64,000 bases of DNA, taken from Methylococcus sp. EFPC2. GTDB taxonomy: Bacteria; Pseudomonadota; Gammaproteobacteria; Methylococcales; Methylococcaceae. The notes under the pieces were generated by a model that did not search any database, was not told the DNA's origin, and worked only from the letters and a program-made list of their open reading frames with translations. How positions within the stretch are numbered: the stretch's first letter is position 1; every line of letters starts with the position of its first letter. This document shows positions 44,381 through 48,335 of the stretch, piece by piece. The stretch is taken from contig NZ_CP070491.1 of the NCBI RefSeq assembly GCF_016925495.1, positions 4,290,001-4,354,000 on the forward strand. Direction: 5' to 3'. The translations under genes were made by a program, and so were the position numbers.

Positions 44381-44683
44381 TCAGCGGAATAAATCTCCCA
44401 GCCGTGGGAATCCCATGAGATTCGAGCCTTGAGGGCGGACATCCCGGACGTCTTCCAGCTTCGCCAGTTGCTGCACGATCTGCGCGAGCCGCCCGTCGTC
44501 GCGAACCAGCAGCCAGATGCGCCCCAGCGGGCCGGCCGGCCCGAATGCCATGCCTTCGAGGGCATAGGCGCGGCGCGCGAACAGGCCGACGACCTGCGAG
44601 ACGGAGCCGGTGTGATTCAGCACATCGAGTTCCAGCACGGTACGGCGGATGTCTGGCTGGATGGGGGCCATGGGGTCGATCAT
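44381..44683 (-). CDS. ilvN: Acetolactate synthase small subunit
   Basis: Regulatory subunit that gives valine feedback to the large subunit. 100 residues with one ACT domain (TVLELDVLNHTGSVSQVVGLFARRAYALEG, seen in parts: LDVLNHTGSVSQVVG and FARRAYALEG). This short form matches E. coli IlvN (about 96 residues), not the longer IlvH. Three bases follow the ilvB stop. Confidence 0.92.
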   Translation of the reverse strand: MIDPMAPIQPDIRRTVLELDVLNHTGSVSQVVGLFARRAYALEGMAFGPAGPLGRIWLLVRDDGRLAQIVQQLAKLEDVRDVRPQGSNLMGFPRLGDLFR

Positions 44684-44686
44684 GGG

Positions 44687-46354
44687 TCAGGCTCCTATCA
44701 TGTCGGTGTTGGCGGCGCCCGGCGGCACCATGGGCAAGACCTGTTGCCGGAGATCTATGCCGGCGTGGATCAAGCAGGGGCCGCGCGCGTTCAGGGCATC
44801 GCGCAAGCTGTCTTCGACGTTGTCCGCGGTGTCCAGGTCGAGCCCGTGCATCCCGAATCCTTCGGCGATGCGGACGAAGTCCGGCCCGCTGTGGAAGCGG
44901 GACGCGTAGATGCGCCGGCCGTAGAACAGGCTTTGTTGCTGATGCACCATGCCGAGGGCGCGATTGTTCATCAGGACGATCTTGACGTCGGCCTGCTCTT
45001 CGACGGCGGTGGCCAGTTCCTGTACGTTCATCAGCAAGCTGCCGTCGCCGGAGAAGCAGACCACGGTTTTTTCCGGCGCGGCGAGCGCCGCGCCGATGGC
45101 GGCGGGCAGGCCGAATCCCATGGTGCCGAGTCCGCCCGAGGTCAGCCACAGCCTGGGCTGGCGGAAGGGATAGGTTTGCGCCACCCACATCTGATGCTGG
45201 CCCACATCGGTGACGATGATCGCCTCTTCATCCAGGCATCCGGCGACGGCGCGTATCAAGCCGTAATGGCTGCGAGGGTCGTTCATGTCCGGGGTGGCCA
45301 GCGGAAATTCGCGTTTCAGTCGGGCTATGCGATCCAGCCAGTCGGCGTGCGCCTGAGCGGGTACCCTGGGCAGCAAGTCCCGTAACACCGCGCCGACATC
45401 GCCTGCGATGCCGACCTGGGCGGTTTTGAGTTTGCCCAGTTCCGACGGGTCGATGTCCACGTGCACGACCTTGGCCTGCGGGCAGAATTGGGCCAGCTTC
45501 CCCGTCGCCCTGTCGTCGAAACGCGCGCCCAGGGTGACGAGCAGGTCGCACTCGTCCAGCGCCAGGTTGGTGAAACGCGCGGCGTGCATGCCCAGCATAC
45601 CCAGCGACAATGGGTGATCCGCCGGCATCGCACCCAGGGCCATCAGCGTCATGACGGTCGGCAGCGCCGCTTTTTCGGCCAGAGCCACCGCCGGTTGCGC
45701 GGCGCCGGACTGTATCACTCCGCCGCCGAGGTACAAGATCGGGCGTTCGGCTGCCGCGATGAGGGCTGCGGCTTGCTCGACCTGGGCGATATCGACCGAG
45801 GGTAGCGGGTCCGGGTGCGCCGGTTCCGGCCAGGAGCCCACCGTCACGAGATCGGTTTGCACGTCCTTGGGGATGTCGATCAGGACCGGACCGGGCCGGC
45901 CGGACGCCGCGACGCGGAAAGCCTGGGGAATGACCGTAAGCAATTCCTCGGCCGAGCGGACCAGGAAATTGTGTTTGGTGATCGGAATCGTCAATCCATA
46001 GGTGTCGACTTCCTGGAAGGCGTCCGTCCCCATCATGCCGAGGGGAACCTGCCCGGTGATCGCCACCAGCGGTACGGAGTCGAGCTTGGCGTCGGCGATG
46101 GCCGTCAACAGATTGGTCGCGCCAGGGCCGGACGAGGCCAGGCAGACCGCCGGCTCGCCGCTTGCGCGCGCCATTCCCTGGGCGATGAAGCCCGCTCCCT
46201 GTTCGTGGCGGGCGAGCACGTGGCGTATTTGGCCGGACCGGGAAAGGGCGTCGTAAATCGGCAGATTGGCGCCGCCGGGTATGCCGGCGACGACGCGCAC
46301 GCCCTGCCGTTCCAATAGCCTGACGGTGAGTTGCGCGCCGTTGAGTATGTCCAT
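44687..46354 (-). CDS. ilvB: Acetolactate synthase large subunit
   Basis: ThDP enzyme for the first common step of valine and leucine (and isoleucine) synthesis. 555 residues from ATG 46354, with AGGAG seven bases upstream. The thiamine Glu is in RHEQGAGFIAQGMAR, the FAD region follows (GGGVIQSGAAQP), and the ThDP motif is FSGDGSLLMNVQELATA to MNNRALGMVHQQQ. Sequence is closer to E. coli IlvB (isozyme I). Expression is probably controlled by the leader described below. Confidence 0.95.
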   Translation of the reverse strand: MDILNGAQLTVRLLERQGVRVVAGIPGGANLPIYDALSRSGQIRHVLARHEQGAGFIAQGMARASGEPAVCLASSGPGATNLLTAIADAKLDSVPLVAITGQVPLGMMGTDAFQEVDTYGLTIPITKHNFLVRSAEELLTVIPQAFRVAASGRPGPVLIDIPKDVQTDLVTVGSWPEPAHPDPLPSVDIAQVEQAAALIAAAERPILYLGGGVIQSGAAQPAVALAEKAALPTVMTLMALGAMPADHPLSLGMLGMHAARFTNLALDECDLLVTLGARFDDRATGKLAQFCPQAKVVHVDIDPSELGKLKTAQVGIAGDVGAVLRDLLPRVPAQAHADWLDRIARLKREFPLATPDMNDPRSHYGLIRAVAGCLDEEAIIVTDVGQHQMWVAQTYPFRQPRLWLTSGGLGTMGFGLPAAIGAALAAPEKTVVCFSGDGSLLMNVQELATAVEEQADVKIVLMNNRALGMVHQQQSLFYGRRIYASRFHSGPDFVRIAEGFGMHGLDLDTADNVEDSLRDALNARGPCLIHAGIDLRQQVLPMVPPGAANTDMIGA

Positions 46355-46396: not shown

Positions 46397-46435
46397 CAAA
46401 AAAGAAACCCCCGTCGGTTCGCGCCGGCGGGGGTT
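46397..46435 (-). terminator. Attenuator terminator upstream of ilvB
   Basis: Read on the minus strand: AACCCCCG and CGGGGGTT arms (46428-46435 and 46406-46413) with a GC-rich inner helix, followed by TTTCTTTTTTGG. It lies about 42 bases before the ilvB ATG and downstream of a Val-rich leader peptide, the arrangement of an amino-acid attenuator. Confidence 0.85.
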
Positions 46436-46458
46436 GTTGGATTCGGTGTTCGCTTTAC

Positions 46459-46575
46459 CTATTCACTTCCAACCCGCGACGGCGCATGCGTCACCACGAC
46501 TGGCACGCCGACGACCGCAAGCAGCACCCAAGCGAAAACGGGCAGATGTTCGACGGTGGCGTAACGGGGAGTCAT
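46459..46575 (-). CDS. ilvB leader peptide (attenuator)
   Basis: ATG at 46575 opens 38 codons (MTPRYATVEHLPVFAWVLLA, then VVGVPVVVTHAPSRVGSE, stop TAG at 46459-46461). Eight of its codons are Val and three Leu, clustered between codons 17 and 28. E. coli ilvBN has a leader peptide also rich in Val and Leu. Stalling on these codons when valine or leucine is low would favour the antiterminator. Ribosome site is not obvious. Confidence 0.75.
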   Translation of the reverse strand: MTPRYATVEHLPVFAWVLLAVVGVPVVVTHAPSRVGSE

Positions 46576-46751
46576 GGCGCGTATCGGCTACAGGTGTTGG
46601 AAGTACGGTTACATTCTGAAGCAGTAGGCCGGTGAGGCGCAAGCCCCGTCCTCGACCCCTGTGTTCAGTTCGTCGGGTGCGAGGCCGCCCGCCGGACGGA
46701 AACGCCTTGCGGGAGGGGAGTGCGGTGCGGTGCCGACTCGCCGATGCCGGT

Positions 46752-48335
46752 TCATGAGAGCGGTTTCGGCGCCCCTGCCCGGAGTTTGTCCGGATCCAAC
46801 GCGGCGAGCACGGCCGGGAAATCCAGCGGCGTGCCGGCATCCACTTCGACACTGGCGAGCCGCTCGGTTGCCGAGAGCGGCTCGGCGCCGGTGATTTGCG
46901 CCTCGAGCACGGCCAGCGTGGCTTCGGAAGGGTCGCCGCCGGATAGCCGGCGCGATTCGATGCGTTGCCTGAGCAAGGGCTCGGGCGCGACGAGATCGAG
47001 GATCTTGAAGGGTATGGCCGCCTGCCGGGCGAGGTCGCGGAAGCGGTCGCGGTAGCCCGCCTTCAGAAAGGTTGCGTCCACGATCACGTTGTGACCGGCC
47101 TGCAGGAGCGACCCGGCGCAGGTGCGGAGGCGTTCGTAGGTGGCCTCGGTCTGGGGTTGCGCGTAGAGGCCGGGGTCGGTCGATGCCGTGGCCGGGTAGC
47201 CGGCCAGGCGTTTGCGCTCGATGTCGGACGCGATGCGCACGGCGGGCAGGGCGGCCGCGAGCCGGTGGGCCAGCCAGGATTTGCCGCTGCCCGACAGTCC
47301 GTGGGTGATAATCAGCATGGGCCGGTGCTTGGCTATGATGCGGCTGGCGTACTCCAGGTAGTGCAGACACTGCCGTTCCAGCTCGGCCTTTTGCTCCTCT
47401 TCCGCCTGCTGCCGGGTTAGGCAGGCGATCTTGGCCCGCACCATTGCGCGATACACCCGGTAATAGTCGAACACCGCCAGGCCGGTGTAATCGCCCGTGT
47501 GCGCCAGGTAACGGTTGAGCAAGCGCCAGGCGAGTTCGGACAGGCCGCGCACTTCCAGATCCATGACGATGAAGGCGAGTTCGCTCAGCGTGTCGATCCA
47601 GCGCAATTCCTCGCTGAATTCGATGCAGTCGAAGGGCACGAGCCGGTCTCCTTCCGCCACCAGATTGCCCAGATGCAAATCGCCGTGGCATTCGCGGACA
47701 TGGCCATCGCGTTTGCGCTGGATCAGCGTGGGGCGTAGCCGCTCGCCCAGCGCCACCGTCCAGTCCCGGATGGCCCGCAGCCGGGTCCATGCTTCGGGTT
47801 CCGTCAGCGCGGCCTCGACCGCCGGGAAATTATGCGCCGCCGCCGATGCGATGCATTCGGGGCTGCCCAGGCCGCTGTTTTCGTCCGCCTGCGCGGCGGA
47901 CAGGTGGAAGTCGGCCAGGGCATCGGCCAGTCCGTCGATGTGCGCTTCCGTCAATCCGCCCCGTTCGGCCAGGGCAACGGCCAGCTTGTCCTCGTCGAAG
48001 CGCTTGAGCATGACGGCGTATTCCCCGCGAGGTGTCGGAGCGTCCGGGTCGAGACGATCGGGGCCTCCGTCGATGCCGATCACGTCGAGATATAGCCCGG
48101 GGGCCAGGCGCCGGTTCAGGCGCAGTTCCTCGCGGCAGAAAAAGTACCGGCGTTCGGGCGTGGAAAAGTCCAGGAAGCCGAAGTCCACCGGTTTCTTGAT
48201 CTTGTAGGCGTAGTCGCCGGCCAGGATGACCCAGGAGATGTGGGTTTCGATCAACGGCACCGACGCGGGTTGGCATTCCCGTTCCAGCCGGCGGTAGAAG
48301 GCCTCAATCGGCGGCGGCAGTGCGGGGTGAGTCAT
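46752..48335 (-). CDS. Aminoglycoside-phosphotransferase-like / P-loop kinase fusion protein
   Basis: 527 residues. The N-terminal half is an APH-like kinase fold with catalytic ECHGDLHLGNLV (about 215) and the DFG-like VPFDCIEF. The C-terminal half from about 340 is a separate P-loop kinase (ITHGLSGSGKSWLAHRL, then IASDIERKRLAG and VIVDATFLKAGYRDRF) of the gluconate-kinase/AAA_33 type. This two-kinase architecture is a known family of unknown role. It overlaps rnd by 32 bases at its start. Confidence 0.88.
   Translation of the reverse strand: MTHPALPPPIEAFYRRLERECQPASVPLIETHISWVILAGDYAYKIKKPVDFGFLDFSTPERRYFFCREELRLNRRLAPGLYLDVIGIDGGPDRLDPDAPTPRGEYAVMLKRFDEDKLAVALAERGGLTEAHIDGLADALADFHLSAAQADENSGLGSPECIASAAAHNFPAVEAALTEPEAWTRLRAIRDWTVALGERLRPTLIQRKRDGHVRECHGDLHLGNLVAEGDRLVPFDCIEFSEELRWIDTLSELAFIVMDLEVRGLSELAWRLLNRYLAHTGDYTGLAVFDYYRVYRAMVRAKIACLTRQQAEEEQKAELERQCLHYLEYASRIIAKHRPMLIITHGLSGSGKSWLAHRLAAALPAVRIASDIERKRLAGYPATASTDPGLYAQPQTEATYERLRTCAGSLLQAGHNVIVDATFLKAGYRDRFRDLARQAAIPFKILDLVAPEPLLRQRIESRRLSGGDPSEATLAVLEAQITGAEPLSATERLASVEVDAGTPLDFPAVLAALDPDKLRAGAPKPLS

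Follow-up and report, generated by a model that had tools for sequence, protein, structure and literature searches.

The leader upstream of ilvBN in the window (the whole 64-kb stretch of DNA under analysis) very probably attenuates transcription by the ribosome-mediated mechanism known from ivbL. The attenuation layout that the initial annotation had proposed for this position holds: a Val-dense ORF, a terminator and a predicted antiterminator stand before AHAS-I ilvB/ilvN. The ORF, the terminator, the antiterminator exclusive with it, the conservation and covariation among relatives and the orthologous target gene were all obtained by computation. Since E. coli ivbL is already known to attenuate ilvBN, the element belongs to a known kind of regulator; its occurrence here would extend attenuation of AHAS-I by amino acids beyond the enterics, to a methanotroph-type genome of an order in which this operon is rare.

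The leader, its terminator and its target genes

The gene ilvB (44687..46354, minus strand) encodes the large subunit of an acetolactate (acetohydroxyacid) synthase of the AHAS-I type. Its product matches NF006016 (PRK08155) with an E-value of 3.7e-298 and 989.5 bits against a cut-off of 870, and the AHAS-2 and AHAS-3 equivalog models listed for it score below their own cut-offs. In a tree, the AHAS-I clade is split with support of 100/98 from the ilvG rows and from a 44% identical IlvB paralog, which the same genome also encodes; 10 of the 25 inner branches of this tree are open. An AGGAG motif (46365-46361) lies upstream of the ilvB start codon (ATG 46354). The adjoining ilvN-like gene for the small (ACT) subunit (44381..44683, minus strand) has NF006036 (PRK08178) as its best model, with an E-value of 6.9e-25 that is below the cut-off of that model, and matches the AHAS ACT domain PF22629 above cut-off (E 2.5e-17). 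Upstream of the leader, a gene on the minus strand (46752-48335) combines a phosphotransferase-like N-terminal part (PF01636, just under cut-off) with an AAA_33 kinase domain (PF13671, E 5.7e-38).

The leader peptide ORF (46459..46575, minus strand; ATG 46575, TAG 46461-46459) encodes the 38 amino acids MTPRYATVEHLPVFAWVLLAVVGVPVVVTHAPSRVGSE, with ten valines and three leucines overall. Residues 11-28 hold eight of these valines and the three leucines, exactly the cluster that had been described at first reading. Within it, a scan of valine density marks Val17 to Val28 (VLLAVVGVPVVV; 46492..46527, minus strand) as the regulatory codon cluster: with seven valines in 12 residues it is the single top among 101,841 stop-free 12-codon windows in the six frames of the 64 kb. 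A clear Shine-Dalgarno sequence is not visible upstream of the leader ATG. Homologous leader ORFs with in-frame length changes are carried by two related loci (L004 and L005) and by genome G007, and the differences among these three fall on codon positions 2 and 3 only, with none at position 1. In the alignment of these relatives every length change within the ORF keeps to multiples of three, which some of those outside the ORF do not.

The intrinsic terminator (46398..46435, minus strand) consists of a G+C-rich stem (46435-46424/46417-46406) with one C.A mismatch, a loop of 6 nt (46423-46418) and a U-rich tail, TTTCTTTTTT, that ends at 46398; its energy is about -19 to -20 kcal/mol. Its presence before ilvB agrees with the initial annotation, but the gap of 42 bases given there is to be corrected to 43, measured from the U tract to ATG 46354. 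The likely promoter (46613..46642, minus strand) is a weak sigma-70 match, TTGCGC (46642-46637) and CAGAAT (46618-46613) separated by an 18-nt spacer, which is found unchanged in L004 and, with TTGCAC at the same spacing, in the aligned L005 and G007. A simple scanner run over the region listed neither a candidate promoter nor a candidate terminator. The folding energy of the whole leader shows no excess over shuffles (z 0.19 and -0.25), and the duplex energy between leader and terminator arm, taken for the window alone, is not significant, with 60 of 300 shuffles as good. Because bulk folding is like that of shuffles, the case for attenuation is built on location, cross-species comparison and switch logic, not on stability.

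Predicted switching of the leader RNA

Segment 2 (GCGCCGTCGCGGGTTG; 46470..46485, minus strand), the 5' strand of the predicted antiterminator, lies inside the leader ORF, where it encodes about Ala31 to Gly37 (Ala-Pro-Ser-Arg-Val-Gly). It pairs with segment 3 (46421..46436, minus strand), which according to folding and alignments is both the 3' strand of the antiterminator and the 5' strand of the terminator. The minimum-energy register joins 46485-46480 to 46426-46421 (six pairs), 46478-46477 to 46429-46428 (two pairs) and 46475-46470 to 46436-46431 (six pairs). The initial annotation had tied the fate of its reading to whether such a helix could form between the Val codons and the terminator; the helix is predicted, and it is exclusive with the terminator. 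On ribosome-free RNA the minimum-energy fold contains a predicted protector hairpin, segment 1:2 (46479..46518, minus strand), which would hide segment 2.

These elements suggest the following mechanism, to which the promoter, the translation of the leader, the stalling and the response to valine and leucine contribute as parts that we infer. A ribosome would translate the leader as RNA polymerase transcribes it. Given ample charged Val-tRNA and Leu-tRNA, the ribosome would advance to Val28 and the stop codon and cover segment 2, upon which the terminator would form and ilvBN would stay off. At the stop codon (46461) it would cover about 46476-46450, which in the clade of the window would leave 46485-46480 to the protector hairpin. 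When valine or leucine is short, the ribosome would stall on Val17 to Val27; segment 2 (46485-46470), left uncovered, could then pair with segment 3 (46436-46421), so that the terminator would be blocked and ilvBN expressed. On an untranslated leader the protector hairpin would keep segment 2 hidden, and transcription would terminate.

When the leader RNA was modeled with a 27-nt ribosome footprint blocked, a ribosome at Leu19, Val26 or Val27 gave a probability of 1.00 for the antiterminator and 0.00 for the terminator, and a ribosome at Val28 or the stop codon gave 0.99-1.00 for the terminator; for ribosome-free RNA the terminator reached 0.97. This triple behavior with stalled, stopped and no ribosome was reproduced by one of 400 leader shuffles. 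At equilibrium of the complete RNA with a stalled ribosome, the antiterminator wins in the window only, and the terminator keeps probabilities of 0.46-0.99 in the other six of the seven cases, among them E. coli ivbL (locus L016, 0.75). As E. coli also fails this equilibrium test, the test is stricter than biology, and where the terminator is favored at equilibrium, as in these six cases, switching must depend on the order of folding. The decisive stall probabilities of the window may owe something to chance in the energy model. In nascent RNA, before the 3' arm of the terminator, the antiterminator energy of the window was reached by two of 200 shuffles, and all 33 aligned leaders form at least nine pairs between segments 2 and 3, compared with 7.4 expected from shuffles. 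At least four pairs in the register named P1 occur in 30 of 33 relatives vs. 0.8 expected, the misses being L009, L087 and L088.

Recurrence, covariation and alternative readings

Recurrence was assessed in the 300 nt upstream of 30 AHAS-I-like loci, the window included, whose products are at least 53% identical to its IlvB; a further one, L006, was set aside for its short upstream sequence (99 nt). A Val-rich leader, defined as an upstream ORF with at least six valines in 12 codons, precedes 26 of the 30. The four others are L020 (Fusibacter), the degraded-looking L021, L096 with four valines and L097 with three. The holders comprise Rhodocyclaceae, Accumulibacter, Azospira, Enterobacteriaceae, a Myxococcales MAG and nine genomes of the class of the window; the attenuator before AHAS-I spans gamma- and betaproteobacteria as well as this one Myxococcales MAG. 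Among the other ilvB-like loci, with L039 (64 nt upstream) set aside, eight of 65 have a leader of this density (L022, L037, L038, L042, L043, L044, L045, and L074), and four of these (L037, L038, L042, and L043) have leaders that we take to be the known ilvL peptide. Outside Pseudomonadota, Val-rich short ORFs stand before ilvB-like genes in a Treponema MAG (L022), a Fibrobacteres MAG (L044; MNNLRLVTLVVSVVVVVDHSLPLG) and Breznakibacter (L074), which suggests from the reading frames that attenuation by branched-chain amino acids may act on these genes as well.

Covariation among relatives, which the initial annotation had proposed to look for, was scored in two alignments. A1 holds 26 sequences (25 distinct) aligned by MAFFT, and its sequence start is not blind to complementarity, as the 5' cut was set by an eye-picked segment-2 string. 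In A1, the terminator pairs are formed in 86.5% of cells and the antiterminator pairs in 73.5%, compared with 31.6-49.7% when the antiterminator is slid; its covariation score of 0.122 was reached by three of 500 shuffles, and pairs in which both partners differ are unremarkable in number (166 of 500 shuffles had as many). For A2, two near-copies of kept enteric rows (L012 and L017) were dropped and nine model hits added, giving 33 sequences; the nine lean towards pairing, as they were found by a model that contains it. Here, 81.2% of antiterminator cells are paired vs. 29.1-51.3% when slid, and neither the 20 double-changed cells nor the covariation score of 0.168 was reached by any of 500 shuffles, further pair types being at chance level (299 of 500 shuffles). 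The antiterminator helix thus covaries in A2, as at 46478/46428 (C-G in six sequences, A-U in 13) and at 46473/46433 (G-C in 11, U-A in five). The orphan copy in G007 was excluded from A2, and L021, L006, L096 and L097 are in neither alignment; terminators were set by hand for L028 and L095, where, as in L096, the automatic choice was wrong (no U tract near ilvB), and for L092 for trimming. The outcome is a covariation-backed model for an RNA element without a match to Rfam 15 in the window, E. coli and Azospira loci.

These comparisons bear on the simplest rival account, in which a plain terminator, belonging to an upstream transcript or acting as a constitutive brake, is accompanied by a chance ORF, and ilvB is transcribed from its own promoter after the terminator. 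Single-sequence folding that is not unusual and the lack of a strong promoter consensus would suit this account, but it is very unlikely, given that the Val cluster is the densest of the window and has counterparts before most AHAS-I ilvB genes, that the antiterminator pairing recurs and covaries, and that only 43 nt separate ilvB from the terminator. Less probable still is that the small peptide is itself the product, a membrane-like Val/Leu-rich microprotein whose gene the terminator merely ends. Its hydrophobic stretch and the preservation of the ORF in three relatives, which never differ from one another at a first codon position, would fit, but the leader peptides diverge widely between species while the Val codons and the segment-2 RNA (GCGCCG) are kept, and the end of the ORF moves from species to species. 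The conserved Ala-Pro end of the leader peptides is suggested to reflect RNA pairing and not peptide function. Control of ilvB in the window by an RNA that binds a ligand (riboswitch) or a tRNA (T-box), as happens in other ilvB genes and perhaps in Fusibacter, where the L020 leader looks T-box-like by eye, hardly deserves consideration, given that no Rfam family reaches its gathering score in the region and that nothing plausible matches the window locus at E up to 1. A match of L010 to RF02744 was rejected at 23.3 bits, far under the gathering score of 88.

Likeness to known leaders and distribution

Attenuation of the ivbL type can be compared directly with its E. coli counterpart, for which attenuation of ilvBN in response to valine and leucine is described (PMC11187965) and more termination has been linked to ribosomes occupying the stop codon of ivbL to a greater extent (PMC5373646). 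The AHAS-I target in the window is orthologous by NF006016 and the tree, both leaders have a Val run with Leu codons and the same switch logic, and in both segment 2 contains the Ala-Pro codons GCG CCG, six nt downstream of the final Val codon in the run. The initial annotation had granted a resemblance in logic but not in sequence; the first part stands and the second does not, as L016 has both ATGCGCCGT and the terminator core CCCCGCCGGCGC in common with the window. Where E. coli reads ...VVVVVGNAP* (GCG CCG TAG; terminator core AAAACCCCGCCGGCGC), the window reads ...VVVTHAPS (GCG CCG TCG; core AACCCCCGCCGGCGC); in A1, GCGCCGT and the terminator core are common to the window and L015/L016, with L007, L009, and L018 as intermediates. 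The peptides are otherwise unlike, that of the window having 38 residues with ten scattered valines and that of E. coli 32 residues with VVVVRVVVVVGNAP*. The usual stop directly after GCG CCG is absent from the window, L004 and L005, which read on for six codons (TCG for TAG), and the leaders of L008, L010, and L087 also continue beyond GCG CCG; the stop codon of the window thus lies 18 nt (six codons) downstream of the E. coli position, past most of segment 2. The antiterminator of the window is longer than that of E. coli ivbL and, in the model, stronger, and the promoter is different. Regulation of ilvB by cAMP in E. coli has reportedly been the subject of a study. The enteric ivbL loci (L011-L017 and L019) have nine to 11 valines in 12 codons, and GCGCCGTAGGG and the terminator core are fixed among them.

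The ilvL leader of ilvGMEDA in enterics (L037, L038, L042, and L043) is likewise a leader rich in branched-chain amino acids before an AHAS gene, but it has Ile codons, another sequence and another AHAS type, and L037 falls outside the AHAS-I clade of the tree. Vitreschak and colleagues are said to have surveyed proteobacterial attenuation in 2004. The leaders of ilvBNC in Corynebacterium also precede ilvB and form competing hairpins, but they belong to a different phylum (Actinobacteria) and a different RNA (PMC11857589, PMC10272879). Among the papers searched, none reported such an attenuator in Methylococcales or a valine-attenuated MFS transporter; ilv, ivbL and Methylococcus are unmentioned in the main text of PMC2965389.

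AHAS-I ilvB is present in four of 311 genomes of the order of the window (E up to 1e-200); in a class-wide sample of 369 genomes it occurs in 11 (E up to 1e-190). A covariance model of the attenuator, R1, built from A1, finds the element in four of the 311 genomes of the order, in three of them before AHAS-I ilvB, and in 14 of the class sample. These 14 include the window and nine of the ten other AHAS-I genomes (G516 was missed), two matches with more distant ilvB genes (G414, 42% identity; G530, 48%), a match in G668 that precedes an MFS gene, and one counted as false, a terminator without a Val leader in G642 (L133). When the family was searched with R1 at E up to 1, 32 of 38 genomes had matches, but almost all of these were weak and were put down to chance; a plasmid search with the leader DNA gave no match. 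Weak matches in the genome of the window itself (G000, 3828709 and 844329) were also counted as false, being terminators after pmoB copies. One of these copies (L119) matches PF04744 with an E-value of 4.1e-190 and L120 is a near-identical ORF; from the presence of pmoB the genome is taken to be of the methanotroph type of Methylococcales. The two copies (G000:C1 near 3828709 and 844329) have near-identical terminators, and a transposase-like ORF, IS30-type by eye, lies 3' of L119.

In some relatives the switch precedes a transporter gene or has no ilv gene behind it. In G668 and its family, which is not that of the window, R1 matches occur in seven of 41 genomes: in four before ilvB (G720, G721, G722, and G725), in G747 at a contig end, and in G668 (L129/L134) and G717 (L139) as a Val-rich leader and attenuator directly before a gene for an MFS transporter of the Bcr/CflA family (TIGR00710, above cut-off). 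G668 and G717 belong to one gammaproteobacterial genus, in which relatives have the attenuator before ilvB; the two have no AHAS-I, their AHAS relatives reaching no more than 45% identity, and the AHAS relatives in G721 and G722 are 58-59% identical. It is conceivable, if rather doubtful, that the valine attenuator is an old and self-contained RNA module, separable from the enzyme, that became attached to the MFS gene in this genus and persists without ilvB in G007, a close relative of the organism of the window. The orphan attenuator is located in G007 (L118 2246-2357; G007:C1:4017745-4017856, plus strand), a genome in which AHAS-I is absent and the best ilvB-like match has 45% identity, and comprises promoter, Val leader and terminator without ilvB. 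From promoter to terminator 251 nt are kept with 87-88% identity to L004/L005, two of the six P1 antiterminator pairs being broken (GCACCC vs. CGGCGC). This unit might act as a small RNA; the next long ORF after it encodes an FG-GAP/RTX-repeat protein.
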